A stretch of DNA of 64,000 bases, taken from Halanaerobium kushneri (lineage in GTDB: Bacteria; Bacillota; Halanaerobiia; Halanaerobiales; Halanaerobiaceae). The translations under genes were made by a program, and so were the position numbers. A model generated the notes under the pieces. The model did no database searches. It saw only the letters and a program-made list of their open reading frames with translations, and was not told the origin of the DNA. Below, one piece after another: positions 2,106 to 51,278 of the stretch. Location of the stretch: the NCBI RefSeq assembly GCF_900156285.1, contig NZ_FTNC01000004.1, forward strand, positions 1 through 64,000. Reading direction: 5' to 3'. The first letter of the stretch is position 1; each line of letters opens with the position of its first letter.

Positions 2106-3137
2106 GTGGTTTCTATAAATGATGTAGCAGAAAAGGCAAATGTATCAATATCTACTGTATCGAGAGTGATTAATCAAAATGCTAATGTTTCACGTGAAAA
2201 GGAAGAAGCAGTTTTAAAGGCTGTTGATGAACTTGATTATATTCCAAATGGTTTGGCTCAGGGATTGGTAACTAAAAAAAGCAAATCGATTGGTGTTTTA
2301 ATTGCTGATATCGCTAATCTTTATTATTCTTATCTGGTCAAAAGTATAGAGAAAGAACTTCGGGCTGCCGGATATTATGCAGTGATTGGCAACACTGAGT
2401 GGGATGGAAAAAGAGAAAAAGAATATGTGAGACATTTAATGCAGCGGCAGGTCGATGGTTTTATTCTGGCTTCAACTTCTTTAACCTCTTCTTATTTAGA
2501 GCAGTTATTAGAAAAGGATATTCCCCTGGTAGTATTAGATCGCGAAATTAAATCAGATAAGATAGATAAAATAAGAATTGATGATTATAAAGGTGGTTAT
2601 CAGGCTGCAGAACACTTACTGGAATGCAGGTATAATTATTTTGTTCACCTCCAGGGAGCCGATTTTACAGCTACTGCGGCTGATCGTGCTCGCGGCTTTA
2701 AAGATTGTATGCAGGATAATGGTATTGATCATTCTAATTATAAAGTTATTTCTTCATCTTTTGTCGAATCCGAAGCAGCTCAAGATATTGCTCAGTTTTT
2801 GGATTCAAATAATATTAAAGATAAGCGCCCCGGGATTTTTGCTGCCAATGATGCAGCTGCTTTTGGGGTTTTAAAAGAACTAAAAAAGAGGGGGATAAAA
2901 GTTCCCGAGCAGGCGGGAGTTGTTGGTTTTGATAATGTTAATTTTGCTGAATATTCAAGCCCGGCTCTAACAACTATCAGCAGGCCAATTGATGAAATCG
3001 GAAAAATTTCCGCCAGAACGTTACTGAAGAGACTAAATATGAATGAAAATGAAAAGATAACAGAAAAGGATATAACTCTTGCCGTAAAATTAATAAGGAG
3101 AGAGAGTACGGCCAAAATATCGGAGGAGAAACTATGA
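2106..3137 (+). CDS. LacI-family transcriptional regulator
   Basis: 343 residues. An N-terminal helix-turn-helix (INDVAEKANVSISTVSRVIN, residues 4-23) and hinge are followed by a periplasmic-binding-protein-like ligand domain. That domain ends with the usual VVGFDNVNFAEYSSPALTTI and RPIDEIG segments. Translation starts at GTG 2106 after GAGGTGA. Such proteins bind palindromic operators and are released or recruited by a sugar or a phosphoprotein; the effector is unknown. The stop overlaps the start of the next gene (ATGA), so it is translationally coupled to the HD-GYP protein. A palindrome at 2058-2073 may be its own operator. Confidence 0.9.
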   Translation: MVSINDVAEKANVSISTVSRVINQNANVSREKEEAVLKAVDELDYIPNGLAQGLVTKKSKSIGVLIADIANLYYSYLVKSIEKELRAAGYYAVIGNTEWDGKREKEYVRHLMQRQVDGFILASTSLTSSYLEQLLEKDIPLVVLDREIKSDKIDKIRIDDYKGGYQAAEHLLECRYNYFVHLQGADFTATAADRARGFKDCMQDNGIDHSNYKVISSSFVESEAAQDIAQFLDSNNIKDKRPGIFAANDAAAFGVLKELKKRGIKVPEQAGVVGFDNVNFAEYSSPALTTISRPIDEIGKISARTLLKRLNMNENEKITEKDITLAVKLIRRESTAKISEEKL

Positions 3138-17500: not shown

Positions 17501-18592
17501 ATGAAATTTTTAAATAGTAGATATAGTATATTTTTAATAATATTTGTTATTATAATAGCTATACTCTCGGTTCCAGTAACAGCTGCAGATATTGGGGGAA
17601 AGGCCAGTCTAATCAGTAATTTTACTTATCTTGATTCAGAACTGGATAATAATCTGACTGCAGAATTGGAGCTGGAATGGTTTTTACCCTATGATTTTCC
17701 TCTTAATATTCAGAACAGAGCTGTTATTTCTCTAGCAGAAGCGAGAGAAGATAACTTTGAGCTCTGGTTTAAAAAATTATATTTAAAAGAAAAGCTGGGT
17801 CCTTTTGATCTCAGCCTTGGTAGGCAGCCGATTTCCTGGTCTTATGGTGCTTTAATTAATCCCGTTGATTACAGTCTGGGAGCCGAAAATTTAGAGGAAG
17901 AAAGCAGAGCCAAATTTGTTGATGGTATAGAGTTATATTATCCTATTAATTGGGGAAGTGGTCTGACTTTTGTTGCTTCCAATCTTGAAAATCAAAAAGA
18001 CCATAAATGGGCTTTGAGAGGAAGAACCACTTTTAAAGGCTATGATTTAAGTCTCAGTTATGTTAACACCCCTGTAGAAGCTGCGGCGGATCTGGAGCGT
18101 TATGGTTTAACTGCGAAAGGTGATCTGGGTCCAGTTGGTATTTATGGGGCTTATGGTCTCTGGCAGAGTGATGAGATTGATTATAAAATTTATCAGCTTG
18201 GTACAGATTATAGTTATCATTATCTGGCCGGAAGTCAGCTCTATCTGCAGGCAGAATATTTAAGACTTGAAGGCTTGGAAGGAGATATTTCTGCTTTTGA
18301 CTTATTTAGCCTGGAATCATCAACAGCTGCAGCGAACAGTTCAGATATCAAAAGCAGTTTAGATTTTATTAACACTAATTTAAGTTATGAGATTGACGAA
18401 TTCTCCTCGATTGGAATAATGACTGTGAGTTATTTAGATGATGGCAGCACTTTATTTATTCCTAATTACAGTTACCTTTTTAGCAGCAACCTACTACTTG
18501 AACTGCGGGGCAGTCTTGCCGCCGGTAGTGAAGGAGAGATTTTGGGTGGAGATGCTAAAGGTCTAGAAATTAATTTAAGTTATACTTTTTAA
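17501..18592 (+). CDS. Outer-membrane beta-barrel protein (module 2)
   Basis: 363 residues. A signal peptide (ends near PVTAADIG) precedes a beta-rich body. The end GLEINLSYTF, with a terminal phenylalanine, is the usual barrel signature. LSLGRQPISWSYGALINPVD is shared with the barrel of module 1 (GKQRIAWGSGYFFNPTD). It is the last gene of the TetR-ABC-LolA-barrel unit. The likely role is accepting or releasing the LolA-bound cargo at the outer membrane. Its own function is not characterised. Confidence 0.78.
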   Translation: MKFLNSRYSIFLIIFVIIIAILSVPVTAADIGGKASLISNFTYLDSELDNNLTAELELEWFLPYDFPLNIQNRAVISLAEAREDNFELWFKKLYLKEKLGPFDLSLGRQPISWSYGALINPVDYSLGAENLEEESRAKFVDGIELYYPINWGSGLTFVASNLENQKDHKWALRGRTTFKGYDLSLSYVNTPVEAAADLERYGLTAKGDLGPVGIYGAYGLWQSDEIDYKIYQLGTDYSYHYLAGSQLYLQAEYLRLEGLEGDISAFDLFSLESSTAAANSSDIKSSLDFINTNLSYEIDEFSSIGIMTVSYLDDGSTLFIPNYSYLFSSNLLLELRGSLAAGSEGEILGGDAKGLEINLSYTF

Positions 18593-18630
18593 AAACGTAC
18601 ACGCACCGTGAACCTGTCAGTTTATGTCGG
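18593..18630 (+). repeat. 38-nt palindromic intergenic repeat, copy A
   Basis: This copy begins 1 bp after the stop codon of the module 2 barrel gene. It aligns without gaps to copies at 20694-20731 (minus), 28935-28972, 29072-29109 and 50593-50630. Shared positions include AAACnTAC, the central CCGTG, ACC and the TTTnTGTCG end. It shares ACCTGTCAGTTT with the copy at 28935. Confidence 0.65.
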
Positions 18631-18813
18631 TTAAAGTAGAAATTAATTTAATTGTTTTTGGCAAAATTTTTTCCTCCCTCTGTCAATTGGTCTAATTATG
18701 TTTTATAATAAAATAAAGAGGATAATTAAATCGAGATTTATTCGAGCAGCTAAATCTTTTTGGCTAATTCTTTGCTCAGATAATGAAGTCAAGCTGTTTA
18801 GGGGCTGATATTT

Positions 18814-20668: not shown

Positions 20669-20693
20669 AAATACATCTCCCCCTCCGCATAAA

Positions 20694-20731
20694 ACGACAT
20701 AAATCGGGTGGTACACGGCATCTGTAAGTTT
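20694..20731 (-). repeat. 38-nt palindromic intergenic repeat, copy B
   Basis: Read on the minus strand this copy matches the copy at 50593-50630 at 31 of 38 positions, including the unbroken run TGCCGTGTACCACCCGA. It lies between the small gene after the helicase and the MNT gene, touching the last codon of the former. Confidence 0.75.
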
Positions 20732-20924
20732 AAAAATCACTTTCCGGAAAAATTTCGTGCAGCCGATTTTTGAAGTCAGCCGGAGCATAGTTCTGGTAAT
20801 TTTCCACAAGCTGCATCACTTCTTCTAACTGCTGATCACTGATTTCTCCCTTTTCATTGAGCCGGCGGTAGGCGTTGGCAAAAGAAAGTACAAGTTTTAG
20901 ATCTAGACTGTCCAGATTAGCCAT
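20730..20924 (-). CDS. Small protein of unknown function, coupled to the replicative helicase gene
   Basis: 64 residues, rich in acidic residues and predicted helical (SLDLKLVLSFANAYRRLNEK, then ISDQQLEEVMQLVENYQNY). Its ATG lies 8 bp inside the end of the helicase gene, so translation is probably coupled. I do not recognise the family. The even helix pattern and the overlap argue that it is real rather than a chance frame. It might be a small partner of the replication proteins, which is only an inference from position. Confidence 0.55.
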   Translation of the reverse strand: MANLDSLDLKLVLSFANAYRRLNEKGEISDQQLEEVMQLVENYQNYAPADFKNRLHEIFPESDF

Positions 20925-28915: not shown

Positions 28916-28929
28916 TTTAGACAAAAAAT

Positions 28930-28972
28930 AACAAAAACCGACAGGTGCTGCGTACCTGTCAGTTTTTGTTGA
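28930..28972 (+). repeat. 38-nt palindromic repeat, copy E, forming a terminator-like hairpin
   Basis: AACAAAAACCGACAGGT pairs with ACCTGTCAGTTTTTGTT, 17 bp with one C-A mismatch, around GCTGCGT. Positions 28935-28972 align with the other copies of the family. The A-rich 5' arm and T-rich 3' arm would let it end purD transcription in either direction. Confidence 0.75.
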
Positions 28973-28993
28973 TATTTGCAGCAGAGATAGAGC

Positions 28994-29022: not shown

Positions 29023-29063
29023 AAACTTGAGTATGGAACTTATATTTTTATTTTAATAGATGG

Positions 29064-29110
29064 TTCGACAAAAACTTACAAGTACCGGGTACCCATCGGT
29101 TCTTGTCGAA
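29064..29110 (+). repeat. 38-nt palindromic repeat, copy D, in the cysE leader
   Basis: A perfect 8-bp outer inverted repeat TTCGACAA (29064-29071)/TTGTCGAA (29103-29110) encloses the family core (29072-29109) with GTACCGGGTAC inside. It ends 5 bp before the cysE ribosome-binding site AGGAGG, so its RNA hairpin could affect translation. It is in the same orientation as copy E, 100 bp upstream. Confidence 0.75.
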
Positions 29111-29127
29111 TTCAGGAGGTAAAATTT

Positions 29128-46993: not shown

Positions 46994-49900
46994 ATGGCAA
47001 AACAAATGAAGACCATGGATGGAAACACTGCTGCAGCTCATGTGGCTTATGCATTTACAGACGTAGCAGCTATCTATCCTATTACTCCTTCATCTCCAAT
47101 GGCTGAATTAGTTGACGCATGGAGTGCTAATGGTCGTAAAAATATTTTCGGCCAGGAAGTAAAGTTGACTGAAATGCAGTCTGAGGGAGGAGCATCTGGT
47201 GCAGTACATGGTTCCTTGGTGGCAGGAGCTTTGACAACTACTTTCACAGCTTCTCAGGGATTATTATTGATGCTGCCTAATATGTATAAGATTGCCGGAG
47301 AACAGTTGCCCGGAGTTTTTCATGTTAGTGCACGTACTGTTGCTACACATGCTCTATCGATCTTTGGTGATCACTCTGATGTAATGGCTGCCCGTCAAAC
47401 AGGTACAGCTATGTTAGCTTCCGGAAGTGTTCAGGAAGTTATGGACTTAGCTGGTGTTGCTCATCTGGCATCTATTAAATCAAGTTTACCATTCGTACAT
47501 TTCTTTGATGGTTTTAGAACCTCTCATGAATATCAAAAAATAGAGGTTATGGATTATGATGATCTGGAAGGATTGGTTGATTACGGAAAGATCAGTGAAT
47601 TCAGACACAGAGCATTAAATCCTGAACGCCCTGTAACAATGGGTACAGCTCAAAACCCAGATATTTTCTTCCAGGCGCGTGAAGCTTGTAATAGTTTCTA
47701 TGATGCAGTTCCGGATATTGTAGAAGAATATATGCAGGAAATTTCAGAATTGACAGGTAGAGAATATCATCCATTTAACTATGTAGGTGCAGAAGATGCT
47801 AAATATGTAGTAGTGGCTATGGGTTCTGTAACAGATACTATCGAAGAAACTGTTAAGTACTTAGTAGATCAAGGAGAAAAAGTTGGTCTGATTAAAGTAA
47901 GATTATATCGTCCATTCTCCGAAAAATACTTCATGAAGGCTCTTCCAGAAACTGCTGAGAAGATTGCTGTATTAGATAGAACTAAAGAACCTGGTGCAGT
48001 AGGGGAACCACTTTATGAAGATGTAAGATCATTATTCTACGATCACGAAAAGCGCCCTGTTATAGTTGGCGGACGCTACGGTTTAAGTTCTAAGGATACT
48101 ACTCCTACACAGATTAACGCTGTATTTGAGAATCTTAGAAAAGATGAGCCAAAAGATCACTTTACAATTGGAATTAAAGATGATGTTACAAATACGAATC
48201 TTGAACTTACAAAACATATTAATACTTCTCCAGAAGGTACAGTTCGCTGCAAGTTCTGGGGTCTTGGTTCTGACGGTACTGTTGGAGCTAACAAAAATGC
48301 GATCAAGATTATTGGTGACAATACAGATAAATATGCTCAGGCATACTTCTCTTATGACTCCAAAAAATCTGGTGGTGTAACTGTTTCTCACTTAAGATTT
48401 GGTGATGAGCCAATTAAGTCAACTTACTTAATTGATCAAGCAGATTATGTTGCCTGCCATAACGAATCTTATGTAGATAAGTTTGATATGGTTGAAGATC
48501 TACATGATGGCGGAAACTTTGTACTTAACTGTACCTGGTCAGCTGATGAGCTGGACGAAAATCTTCCTGCGAAAATGAAAAAGTATATTGCTGATCATAA
48601 CATTAATCTCTACACAATTAATGCTGTAGATATTGCTCAGGAAGTTGGTTTAGGACAGAGAATCAATATGGTAATGCAGACTGCTTTCTTTAAAGTAGCT
48701 GACATTATTCCTGTTGATGAAGCTGTTGAATATCTAAAAGAAGCTATTCAAAAATCTTATGGTCATAAAGGTGATAAGATTGTTGAAATGAATAATAAAG
48801 CAGTAGATAAGGCTCTAGATGCATTAGTTAAAATTGATGTACCAGCCGAATGGTCTAGTGCTGAAACTGCTGAGAAGGAAGAGGAAGAAGACGTGCCAGA
48901 ATTTGTTAAGAATGTACTTAAGGTTGTTAATGCACAAAAAGGTGATGAATTACCTGTAAGCACATTTATTGGCCGTGAAGATGGACACTTCCCTCCAGGA
49001 CTTTCTAAATACGAAAAACGTGGTATTGCAATTAATGTACCTGACTGGTTAAGTGACAAATGTATTCAGTGTAACCAGTGTTCATTAGCATGTCCACATG
49101 CTGTAATTAGACCTTTCTTATTAGATGAAGAAGAAGCTGCAAACGCTCCAGAAGGATTTGAAACTCTTGATGCTCGCGGTAAACAGCTGGAAGGATTGCA
49201 GTATAAGATTCAGGTAAGCCCTTATGATTGTACAGGTTGTGGTGTTTGTGCTGATGTTTGTCCTGTTGATGCATTAGAGATGACTCCTTTTGCAGAAATG
49301 GTAGAAAAAGATGCAGACAACTGGGATTATGCTATTAACGAAATTTCTATTAAGGATGACTTAATGGATCCTGTTAATATCAAAGGTAGTCAGTTCCAGG
49401 AACCACTACTTGAGTTCCACGGTGCTTGTGCAGGTTGTGGAGAAACAGCTTATGCTAAATTGGTAACTCAGTTATTTGGAGACAGAATGCTGATTGCTAA
49501 CGCTACAGGTTGTTCTTCAATCTGGGGTGGATCTGCTCCTGTATCTGTTTACTCTACTAACCCAGAAGGCCACGGACCAGCCTGGGCCAACTCCTTATTT
49601 GAGGATAACGCCGAGTATGGTTATGGTATGTATCTGGCTAATGAGCAGATTAGAGCTAAGATTGCTGACCTGATGGAAGAAGCAATTGAGCTTGATTTAG
49701 ATTCAGAACTAACAGAGCTAATGAAAGAAATGTTAGATAACTATAATGACGGCGAGAAAACTAAAGAAATCAAGAAGAAAATGATGCCTTTACTCGCTAA
49801 GTACAGTGAAAACGAAGTAATTGCTGAGATTGTTGACCGTAAAGAGTTTATTACTAAGAAATCTCAGTGGATTATTGGTGGAGACGGCTGGGCTTATGAT

Positions 49901-50524
49901 ATCGGTTACGGAGGATTAGACCACGTTATCGCTTCTGGTGATGATGTAAATGTATTAATCTTTGATACAGAGGTTTATTCTAACACCGGTGGACAGTCCT
50001 CTAAAGCTACTCCTACTGCTGCAGCTGCTAAGTTCGCTGCTTCTGGTAAGAAGATTAAGAAGAAGGACTTAGGACAGATGGCTATGACTTATGGTTATGT
50101 TTATGTTGCTCAGATTTCTCTGGGTGCCAACATGAACCAGGCAATCAAAGCTATCGCAGAAGCTGAAGCATATGATGGACCTTCCATCATTATCGCTTAT
50201 GCTCCCTGTATTTCACATGGACTCAAAAAAGGTATGGGCTGTAGTGTTAGTCAGGAGAAAGATGCAGTTAAATCTGGATACTGGCACCTATTCCGCTTCA
50301 ACCCAGATCTTAAAGAAGAAGGAAAGAATCCATTTAGTCTGGATTCCAAAGAACCTACTGAAAGCTTCAGAGACTTTATTCTTAGTGAGGTACGTTTCTC
50401 CTCTCTACAGAAGACATTCCCTGAAATTGCAGAGGATCTCTTTGAAAAATCTGAACAGGATGCAAAAGAACGCTATCAGTCTTACAAGAGACTTGAGCAG
50501 GCTTATGCTCCTGAAGAAGAGTAA
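46994..50524 (+). CDS. nifJ: Pyruvate:ferredoxin (flavodoxin) oxidoreductase, single-chain
   Basis: 1176 residues, the usual length. The N-terminal domain starts MKTMDGNTAAAHVAYAFTDV and contains YPITPSSPMAELVDAW. The ferredoxin domain carries CIQCNQCSLACPHAVIRP (about 690) and CTGCGVCADVCPVDALEM (about 745). The thiamine domain has EFHGACAGCGETAYAKL and NATGCSSIWGGSAP. IFDTEVYSNTGGQSSKATPT is the TPP/Mg loop. It converts pyruvate and CoA to acetyl-CoA, CO2 and reduced ferredoxin. It indicates a fermentative anaerobe. The codon use looks more optimised than in neighbours (many CTT/GGT/GCT), in line with its promoter. Confidence 0.98.
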   Translation: MAKQMKTMDGNTAAAHVAYAFTDVAAIYPITPSSPMAELVDAWSANGRKNIFGQEVKLTEMQSEGGASGAVHGSLVAGALTTTFTASQGLLLMLPNMYKIAGEQLPGVFHVSARTVATHALSIFGDHSDVMAARQTGTAMLASGSVQEVMDLAGVAHLASIKSSLPFVHFFDGFRTSHEYQKIEVMDYDDLEGLVDYGKISEFRHRALNPERPVTMGTAQNPDIFFQAREACNSFYDAVPDIVEEYMQEISELTGREYHPFNYVGAEDAKYVVVAMGSVTDTIEETVKYLVDQGEKVGLIKVRLYRPFSEKYFMKALPETAEKIAVLDRTKEPGAVGEPLYEDVRSLFYDHEKRPVIVGGRYGLSSKDTTPTQINAVFENLRKDEPKDHFTIGIKDDVTNTNLELTKHINTSPEGTVRCKFWGLGSDGTVGANKNAIKIIGDNTDKYAQAYFSYDSKKSGGVTVSHLRFGDEPIKSTYLIDQADYVACHNESYVDKFDMVEDLHDGGNFVLNCTWSADELDENLPAKMKKYIADHNINLYTINAVDIAQEVGLGQRINMVMQTAFFKVADIIPVDEAVEYLKEAIQKSYGHKGDKIVEMNNKAVDKALDALVKIDVPAEWSSAETAEKEEEEDVPEFVKNVLKVVNAQKGDELPVSTFIGREDGHFPPGLSKYEKRGIAINVPDWLSDKCIQCNQCSLACPHAVIRPFLLDEEEAANAPEGFETLDARGKQLEGLQYKIQVSPYDCTGCGVCADVCPVDALEMTPFAEMVEKDADNWDYAINEISIKDDLMDPVNIKGSQFQEPLLEFHGACAGCGETAYAKLVTQLFGDRMLIANATGCSSIWGGSAPVSVYSTNPEGHGPAWANSLFEDNAEYGYGMYLANEQIRAKIADLMEEAIELDLDSELTELMKEMLDNYNDGEKTKEIKKKMMPLLAKYSENEVIAEIVDRKEFITKKSQWIIGGDGWAYDIGYGGLDHVIASGDDVNVLIFDTEVYSNTGGQSSKATPTAAAAKFAASGKKIKKKDLGQMAMTYGYVYVAQISLGANMNQAIKAIAEAEAYDGPSIIIAYAPCISHGLKKGMGCSVSQEKDAVKSGYWHLFRFNPDLKEEGKNPFSLDSKEPTESFRDFILSEVRFSSLQKTFPEIAEDLFEKSEQDAKERYQSYKRLEQAYAPEEE

Positions 50525-50561
50525 TAAAATAGCTTAAAAATAAATAAAAGAGCAAGGATAA

Positions 50562-50592
50562 AAGACCAGCGGGACGCCGCTGGTCTTTTTTT
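50562..50592 (+). terminator. Terminator of the PFOR gene
   Basis: AAGACCAGCG pairs with CGCTGGTCTT around GGACGC-type bases and is followed by TTTTTT. The next element is repeat copy C, which begins 1 bp later. Confidence 0.92.
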
Positions 50593-50630
50593 TAACGTAC
50601 TGGTGCCGTGTACCACCCGAGTTTTGTCTT
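50593..50630 (+). repeat. 38-nt palindromic repeat, copy C, upstream of the Y1 transposase
   Basis: It contains TGCCGTGTACCACCCGA, shared exactly with copy B, and aligns without gaps to copies A, D and E. It lies between the PFOR terminator and the transposase gene, 114 bp before the transposase start. Confidence 0.75.
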
Positions 50631-50744
50631 ATTATGTCGAAAAGATAAGCGGATAAATTTTTTAATTAAATTGTAAAAATATTGAAATTATATAAATAAA
50701 AGTATATAATTAAACTGAAGCAAAAAAATAGAAGGGTGGTATTT

Positions 50745-51278
50745 ATGGTGCGCAAAAGAAGAGTCTGGTATCCTGGAGCAAAGTATCATATTACCTGTAG
50801 GGGGAATAAAAAAAGAACAATTTTTTTAGACAGGATTGATTTTAAAATATATATTAATATAATTAAAGAAATAAATAATAAATATCCATTTGTAATTCTA
50901 AGCTATTGTTTGATGCCTAACCATGTTCACCTGCATCTTAGAACTGAAGATATAGAAATCTGGAAAATTATGCAGGCTATTAACTGGCGTTATGCGCGTT
51001 ATTTTAACGAAAGATATAATACAGTAGGCCATGTATTCCAGGGTCGATATGGCTCAAAGATAATAGAAAATAATTACTACAATTTAATTGTAAATCGTTA
51101 TATTCATCTCAATCCGGTTAAAGATCAACTGGTCTTAAACCCCAAAGATTATCGCTGGAGCAGTTACAGGATCTATTTAGGAGAAGAAAAAAGTGAGTTA
51201 GTTAAAGAAGAGGAGATTCTAAACTATTTTGCTGGTGAAAGAAGTTTATATAATAAATTCATTATGGAATTTATTTAA
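50745..51278 (+). CDS. HUH/Y1 transposase of the REP-associated (RAYT/COG1943) type
   Basis: 177 residues from ATG 50745 (AAGGG at a good distance). The HUH motif is in YCLMPNHVHLHLR (about 70-82). RYIHLNPVKDQLVLNPKDYR contains the presumed catalytic tyrosine region, and YRWSSYRIYLG follows; HITCRGNKKRTIFLDRIDFK opens the domain. This is the domestic branch of IS200/IS605-like transposases, which move or maintain short palindromic repeats and lack flanking insertion-sequence ends. Its own repeat copy lies 114 bp upstream. The gene appears complete. Confidence 0.85.
   Translation: MVRKRRVWYPGAKYHITCRGNKKRTIFLDRIDFKIYINIIKEINNKYPFVILSYCLMPNHVHLHLRTEDIEIWKIMQAINWRYARYFNERYNTVGHVFQGRYGSKIIENNYYNLIVNRYIHLNPVKDQLVLNPKDYRWSSYRIYLGEEKSELVKEEEILNYFAGERSLYNKFIMEFI

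Follow-up and report, generated by a model that had tools for sequence, protein, structure and literature searches.

Does the single Y1 transposase gene that lies behind nifJ in Halanaerobium kushneri belong functionally with the short repeat found beside it, as in the REP/RAYT pairs of other bacteria? To answer this question, we analyzed a window of 64,000 nucleotides, which makes up the beginning of contig NZ_FTNC01000004.1, and compared the gene (hereafter RAYT-1) and the repeat with their counterparts in other genomes (genomes, contigs and loci are denoted G, C and L, respectively).

The reading frame of RAYT-1 starts with an ATG at 50745 and encodes 177 amino acids (180 if translation starts at an upstream GTG), in which a Pfam search found Y1_Tnp as the sole domain (E 9e-18) and no C-terminal HTH-like domain. 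The protein also matched the NCBIfam model for REP-associated tyrosine transposases (NF047646, E 8.8e-22), scoring 77.6 bits, just under the cut-off of 80. It harbors the motifs NHVH, FQ and YIHLNP, and residues H60, H62 and Y119 (numbered as in the window protein) are invariant across 16 homologues. The best PDB match of its AlphaFold (AF2) model (pLDDT 91.5) was 4er8, the E. coli TnpA-REP bound to a REP hairpin (TM 0.70/0.75), with the IS608 and ISDra2 transposases ranking below. An HUH motif, one catalytic tyrosine in Y---NP and a predicted TnpA-REP fold place RAYT-1 in the RAYT/TnpA-REP class 2, and its motif set is that of subclass 2.1, a putative assignment made by motif alone. The initial annotation had described a protein of the REP-associated type without insertion-sequence ends, and both parts of this description held: around RAYT-1 we saw no such ends, no tnpB and no second copy of the gene, which encodes the only Y1_Tnp protein of the 3.22 Mb genome (G000). 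The traits of IS200/IS605 elements (a Y---Q motif, IS ends and many near-identical copies) were not found in this single-copy, Y---NP-bearing gene. Its position after nifJ is common to six Halanaerobium species, and its dN/dS of ~0.07-0.15, where computable, indicates purifying selection. Thus, RAYT-1 is a low-copy, vertically inherited gene under purifying selection and not a moving insertion sequence.

Between nifJ and RAYT-1 lies a copy of the repeat (copy C, Table 1), which has an equivalent at the same place in other Halanaerobium genomes. Its core ends 115 bp before the ATG, matching the distance of 114 bp given initially. A promoter-like site separates the two, so that the repeat would fall outside the transposase transcript; the number of TTGAAA-TATAAT-like sites in the region was not above chance. 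A pattern scan did not return the nifJ terminator on the + strand and listed a weaker match on the - strand there.

Table 1. Features of the window discussed in the text (R1, repeat model score).
Feature	Position	Core	Strand	Evidence or remark
nifJ (pyruvate:ferredoxin oxidoreductase)	46994..50524		+	Invariably upstream of RAYT-1 within the genus
nifJ terminator, hairpin and T-run	50559..50593		+	Sequence; conserved across genomes; repeat starts directly after
Repeat copy C, candidate REP beside RAYT-1	50586..50640	50595-50629	+	R1 50.3 bits
Promoter-like TTGAAA-17-TATAAT	50682..50710		+	11/12 consensus matches; between copy C and RAYT-1
RAYT-1, HUH/Y1 TnpA-REP-like transposase	50745..51278		+	Pfam/NCBIfam, single copy, AF2 model, dN/dS
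Repeat copy after gene 17501-18592	18584..18640	18595-18629	+	R1 42.7 bits; orthologous copies in G009, G001
Repeat copy directly after stop codon of DnaB-like gene, before next gene's RBS	20685..20740	20695-20729	-	R1 51.3 bits; orthologues in G009, G005, G001, G004; decayed in G008
Palindromic repeat copy after PurD-like gene	28927..28981	28937-28971	+	R1 41.8 bits; orthologous place in G005 empty
Further repeat copy, same intergenic space	29063..29117	29074-29108	+	R1 41.2 bits; half-decayed in G008

The window contains five copies of the repeat, four of which were also recovered by a 22-nt pattern with up to 3 mismatches (0.02 expected in shuffles). Copies were counted with R1, a sequence-only model built from 11 copies and run on 22 genomes, merging overlapping hits and including secondary and degenerate ones down to ~17 bits; this gave 25 copies in G000, 25 in G001, 28 in G003, 20 in G004, 5 in G005, 32 in G009 and 2 in G014. 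In G008 and in G013 there was a single weak hit. The copies are intergenic, conserved in position between genomes and usually found right behind a stop codon. Only 9 of 132 fell inside predicted frames, and both cases in the window are artefacts of frames extended upstream. Inverted pairs less than ~150 bp apart, a trait of REPINs and BIMEs, occur in G000, G001, G003, G004, G005 and G009. In addition, 10-bp GTTTATGTNC-like direct repeat tracts run from terminators into the repeat and lie upstream of many type-ii copies (e.g., G009:C1:33884), and a parS-like string, TGTTTCACGTGA, is present at window positions 2169-2197 inside a LacI-type gene, which is probably a coincidence.

Each element combines a variable head, of which CAGGTGCCGTGTACC, CACGCACCGTGAACC and CACCTACCGTTTACT are examples, with a conserved tail, CCCGRWTTTTGTCGAA; what comes after the head reads CACCCGATTTATGTCG or TGTCGGTTTATGTCG, and a second TATGTCGAA is often found 10 bp further. 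The GT[AG]G foot of canonical REPs was not conserved at the edges of the aligned copies, where a GTCG/CGAC tail was conserved instead. In a DNA-fold test most single units formed weak hairpins (mean z -0.6 to -1.9). A small number of copies were near-perfect palindromes, reaching z -8.5, and the G014 units had z -4 to -5. Given this weak result overall, we rejected a conserved hairpin as the common denominator of the family. A T-box leader, considered for the likeness of CGGGTGGTACA to a T-box motif, was also rejected, as a search of the whole window gave no match to any Rfam family.

An alternative is that it is a host DNA-binding protein, rather than the transposase, that binds the repeats. 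The Spo0A box (TGTCGAA) is similar to the tail TTTTGTCGAA, many copies show an operator-like 10-bp phasing, TTTATGTC-N4-TATGTCGAA, and orthologous repeat positions are conserved. Nevertheless, of the 66 copies no more than 40 nt away from the 3' end of a gene, 58 are in sense orientation just past the stop codon and not at promoters, and the copies vanish or decay without the RAYT, track it in a second family and form clusters around RAYT genes that occupy different places in the chromosome (below), making a host-protein site very improbable.

The repeat family was present in all six genomes of the genus that carry RAYT-1 (G000, G001, G003, G004, G005 and G009; 5-32 copies), while among those lacking the gene there were 0 copies in G002, G006, G007, G010 and G011 and only decayed remnants in G008. 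By itself this co-occurrence is weak: the genomes with RAYT-1 possibly form a single clade, and the contrast may rest on very few gains and losses. In G014, from another family, the enzyme is 58% identical to RAYT-1, and a distinct version of the repeat flanks its gene on either side, an arrangement also seen in G001. The initial annotation had proposed a correlation of transposase and repeat across strains and a search for empty sites in relatives as checks; the former came out positive, both in Halanaerobium and in 159 genomes of another family, and the latter uncovered empty as well as decayed sites. In G008, nifJ is followed straight by the next gene, and degraded copies persist at several orthologous positions, e.g., as GCGTATACGCACCGGGAAGCACTC behind the DnaB-like gene and as an inverted pair, likewise degraded, on contig C22, a pattern suggesting that the enzyme was lost first and the repeats decayed afterwards. 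G006, G007, G010 and G011 showed no recognizable copy at any alignable orthologous site. The empty sites yielded no target-site rule, and no recent transposition event could be made out.

Repeat alleles were then compared between related genomes by a label-swap test on copies at orthologous positions. The heads at these positions were shared within a genome, i.e., they were genome-specific. For pairs whose RAYTs are 65-78% identical, nearly all tests gave a genome-specific signature (p 0.0003-0.06, in most cases the smallest value that the sample allows), as in G001-G009 (enzyme 65%, flanks 81%; p 0.004), G001-G004 (65% and 89%; p 0.004) and G000-G009 (77% and 86%; p 0.0003-0.001). For pairs with RAYT identities of 82-98% and similar flank divergence, no signature was observed (G003-G004, enzyme 82%, flanks 89%; G004-G009, 82% and 84%; G003-G009, 98% and 98%). 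The repeat sequence appears to follow the transposase allele better than it follows flanking divergence, which we regard as strong but not independent evidence, because each comparison comprises 6-17 pairs and the genomes are related. One explanation is that old copies are rewritten in place, another that each copy is selected to match the enzyme. G003 has 7% contamination, and some flanks suggest gene transfer or contamination. Separately, the flanks at G000:C33 ~13039 and G009:C3 ~100747 are 99-100% identical, where ~85% is usual, pointing to recent transfer or contamination.

The position and age of the copies could also be taken to mean that the repeats, once spread by the RAYT, are now kept only as 3'-UTR elements acting in mRNA stability or termination, the RAYT being a relic with another role: copies lie in sense orientation between stop codon and terminator, their shared positions are old and clearly recent insertions are few. 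Against this stand the species-specific homogenization that tracks the RAYT allele, the decay of repeats where the RAYT is missing, and the purifying selection on a RAYT with intact catalytic motifs, and so this scenario, if the least improbable of the three alternatives weighed here, is still very unlikely.

The copies were further found to gather around the gene. After neighbouring copies had been merged, they were over-represented on the RAYT-1 contig in G000 (p 1e-5), G009 (p 7e-6), G001 (p 1e-5) and G004 (p 0.007). As the RAYT-1 region is close to the end of two complete assemblies, it may lie near oriC, and we therefore took a paralogue, RAYT-2, as a control for the clustering. RAYT-2 (~53% identical) adjoins a UvrA-like gene in several genomes of Halanaerobium (L024, L025, L028, L032-L036) and is flanked by GTACCNGGTAC palindromes, which form a separate dispersed family, with 35-118 members in most RAYT-2 genomes and only 6-10 in G007 and G008. 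In the complete genome G006, 9 of the 22 GTACCNGGTAC loci lie within 40 kb of the RAYT-2 gene at 0.58 Mb (p 1e-7). Given these repeats at 0.58 Mb, and the Bacillaceae-type sets that cluster too, origin proximity was rejected as the cause of the clustering. The association of RAYT-2 with GTACCNGGTAC is imperfect, because G013 and the incomplete G002 have many palindromes and no detected RAYT-2. G000, which lacks RAYT-2, has 11 GTACCNGGTAC palindromes that may be relics.

Relatives of RAYT-1 outside the genus were examined in a set of 80 related loci from named genomes. Of these, 61 were scanned for TGTCGAA, which occurred near the gene 25 times against ~6 expected (p 8e-9); a stricter tail pattern gave few but enriched matches beside non-Halanaerobium RAYTs (4 near versus 2 far, p 5e-4). 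The units flanking the gene in Paucisalibacillus, Cerasibacillus, Pseudalkalibacillus, Metabacillus and Cytobacillus consist of GGTGCCTGTCAC or GGTGACAGGCACC and then a ACCCGAATTTTGTCGAA-like tail; a shorter unit, GGTG(C/A)CTGTCACTTGTCGAA, was found in Clostridium and in one MAG from Bacillaceae. Fourteen of 30 Bacillaceae-type loci have the gene adjoining members of the repeat family, and in several relatives the tail is dispersed through the genome, in up to 122 copies. Some Bacillus loci have GGGGAC/GGGGTC flanks, similar to GGGGWSAS, and some Bacillus and Clostridium RAYTs (L204, L214, L215, L218 and L221) have flanking GGGGACTGTCCC or GGGGTCTGACCCC repeats that resemble the published TIRYT motif.

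Among 159 genomes from the family to which Cerasibacillus belongs, 31 of the 39 with a close homologue (near-full-length, at least 51% identity) had 5 or more tail copies, compared with 7 of the 120 others (Fisher p 5e-19, a test that is not phylogeny-corrected and whose homologue classes were defined after the search, from E-values and identities). The exceptions are eight RAYT-bearing genomes with few tail copies and the seven that reach 5 copies without a close full-length homologue. Five of the genomes (G062, G084, G088, G117 and G119) were chosen because their copy places were listed, and each has 6-15 tail copies no further than 75 kb from the gene (p 4e-9 to 8e-16). In these genomes, 51 of the 55 near-gene tail copies are on the gene's strand, which could reflect gene orientation or strand-specific transposition.

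This recurrence bears on the possibility that gene and repeats were merely co-inherited in one clade, with no functional tie between them. The RAYT-1 genomes of Halanaerobium share the post-nifJ locus and look closely related, and their correlation may be a single event; yet the association is found again in the 159 genomes of another family, the tail is shared next to divergent RAYTs, the RAYT-centred clustering is repeated, and the repeats of G001 are unlike those of its close relative G004, in parallel to the difference between their RAYTs. Such confounding by lineage is the least probable of the alternatives.

Taken together, we conclude that RAYT-1 and its family of ~25 cognate repeats constitute a REP/RAYT-type pair, to which we assign a probability of roughly 0.86. 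It is supported by the co-occurrence, the decay without the gene, the allele tracking, the clustering, the TnpA-REP fold, the dN/dS and the tail beside relatives, while the weak hairpins, the absence of a GT[AG]G foot, a copy number low for REPs and the exceptions in the 159-genome set count against it. The suggestion of a REP-like system in Halanaerobiales is thereby upheld as to the pair and not as to the canonical form of the repeat, single units being mostly weakly palindromic and without the GTAG foot.

As to how such a pair would work, RAYT-1 may recognize the conserved tail (the complementary strand of which reads 5'-TTCGACAAAWYCGGG) together with a folded head on single-stranded DNA, the tail taking the place of GT[AG]G as the recognized tag. 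Judging from the fold and published work on TnpA-REP, it would cleave the single-stranded repeat via its tyrosine and place copies of single units or of inverted pairs in single-stranded targets close by, e.g., regions just downstream of stop codons and terminators. Copying or replacement at a low rate would keep the family uniform, and the repeats would decay without the protein. Binding, cleavage, strand choice and copying are all inferred here by analogy and from the model.

When compared with E. coli TnpA-REP and its REP/BIME repeats, the Halanaerobium system shares the HUH/Y1 fold (4er8), a single-copy gene, the Y---NP motif, a repeat beside the gene, inverted pairs, intergenic 3' positions and more repeats where the gene is present, the last being known from E. 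coli (PMC8049555). It differs in having the long tail CCCGRWTTTTGTCGAA in place of the GTAG foot, mostly weak hairpins, ~25 copies where E. coli has many more, and marked clustering around the gene. With IS200/IS605 TnpA it shares the modelled fold (PDB matches to ISDra2 and IS608) and, as would be expected, HUH/Y1 chemistry, whereas it has Y---NP instead of Y---Q, a single copy, vertical inheritance, no gene-carrying mobile unit and no tnpB.

The closest known group is TnpA-REP subclass 2.1, or TIRYT (Bertels group 1; PMC6006769, PMC3733652), the second largest subclass in a survey of TnpA-Y1 proteins (PMC6006769), with which RAYT-1 shares NHVH, FQ and Y[IV]HLNP (motifs of subclass 2.1; PMC6006769, Table 1) and inverted repeats flanking the gene in some members, here including G001. 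TIRYTs have GGGGWSAS inverted repeats and, for some, moderately abundant repeat families (PMC3733652); such inverted repeats were not seen at the Halanaerobium RAYT-1 locus, whose repeats do not fit GGGGWSAS, and RAYT-1, at ~180 aa, has no HTH domain found. Furthermore, a dispersed cognate repeat family is present here, whereas no REP-like sequences were reported near subclass 2.1 genes (PMC6006769). A word search of the main texts of PMC6006769 and PMC3733652 brought up no mention of Halanaerobium, Halanaerobiales or, by that name, Firmicutes, and the repeat strings gave no relevant paper among the matches listed in the open-licence literature, so that dispersed cognate repeats for a subclass-2.1-like branch are provisionally new within that literature. 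Tentatively, and at somewhat less than even odds, Halanaerobium and Bacillaceae may hold a separate class of REPs, with a long tail tag (TTCGACAAAWYCGGG) rather than GT[AG]G and short subclass-2.1-like transposases that copy mainly near their own gene and rewrite copies in place, such that repeats at fixed positions would change with the transposase allele. One subclass-2.1-like branch thus gains a dispersed repeat family whose tag is common to Halanaerobium and Bacillaceae, and as the repeats decayed or changed where the enzyme was lost or diverged, the action of RAYTs on their repeats, and the reason for which hosts retain the two, become directly testable in culturable bacteria.
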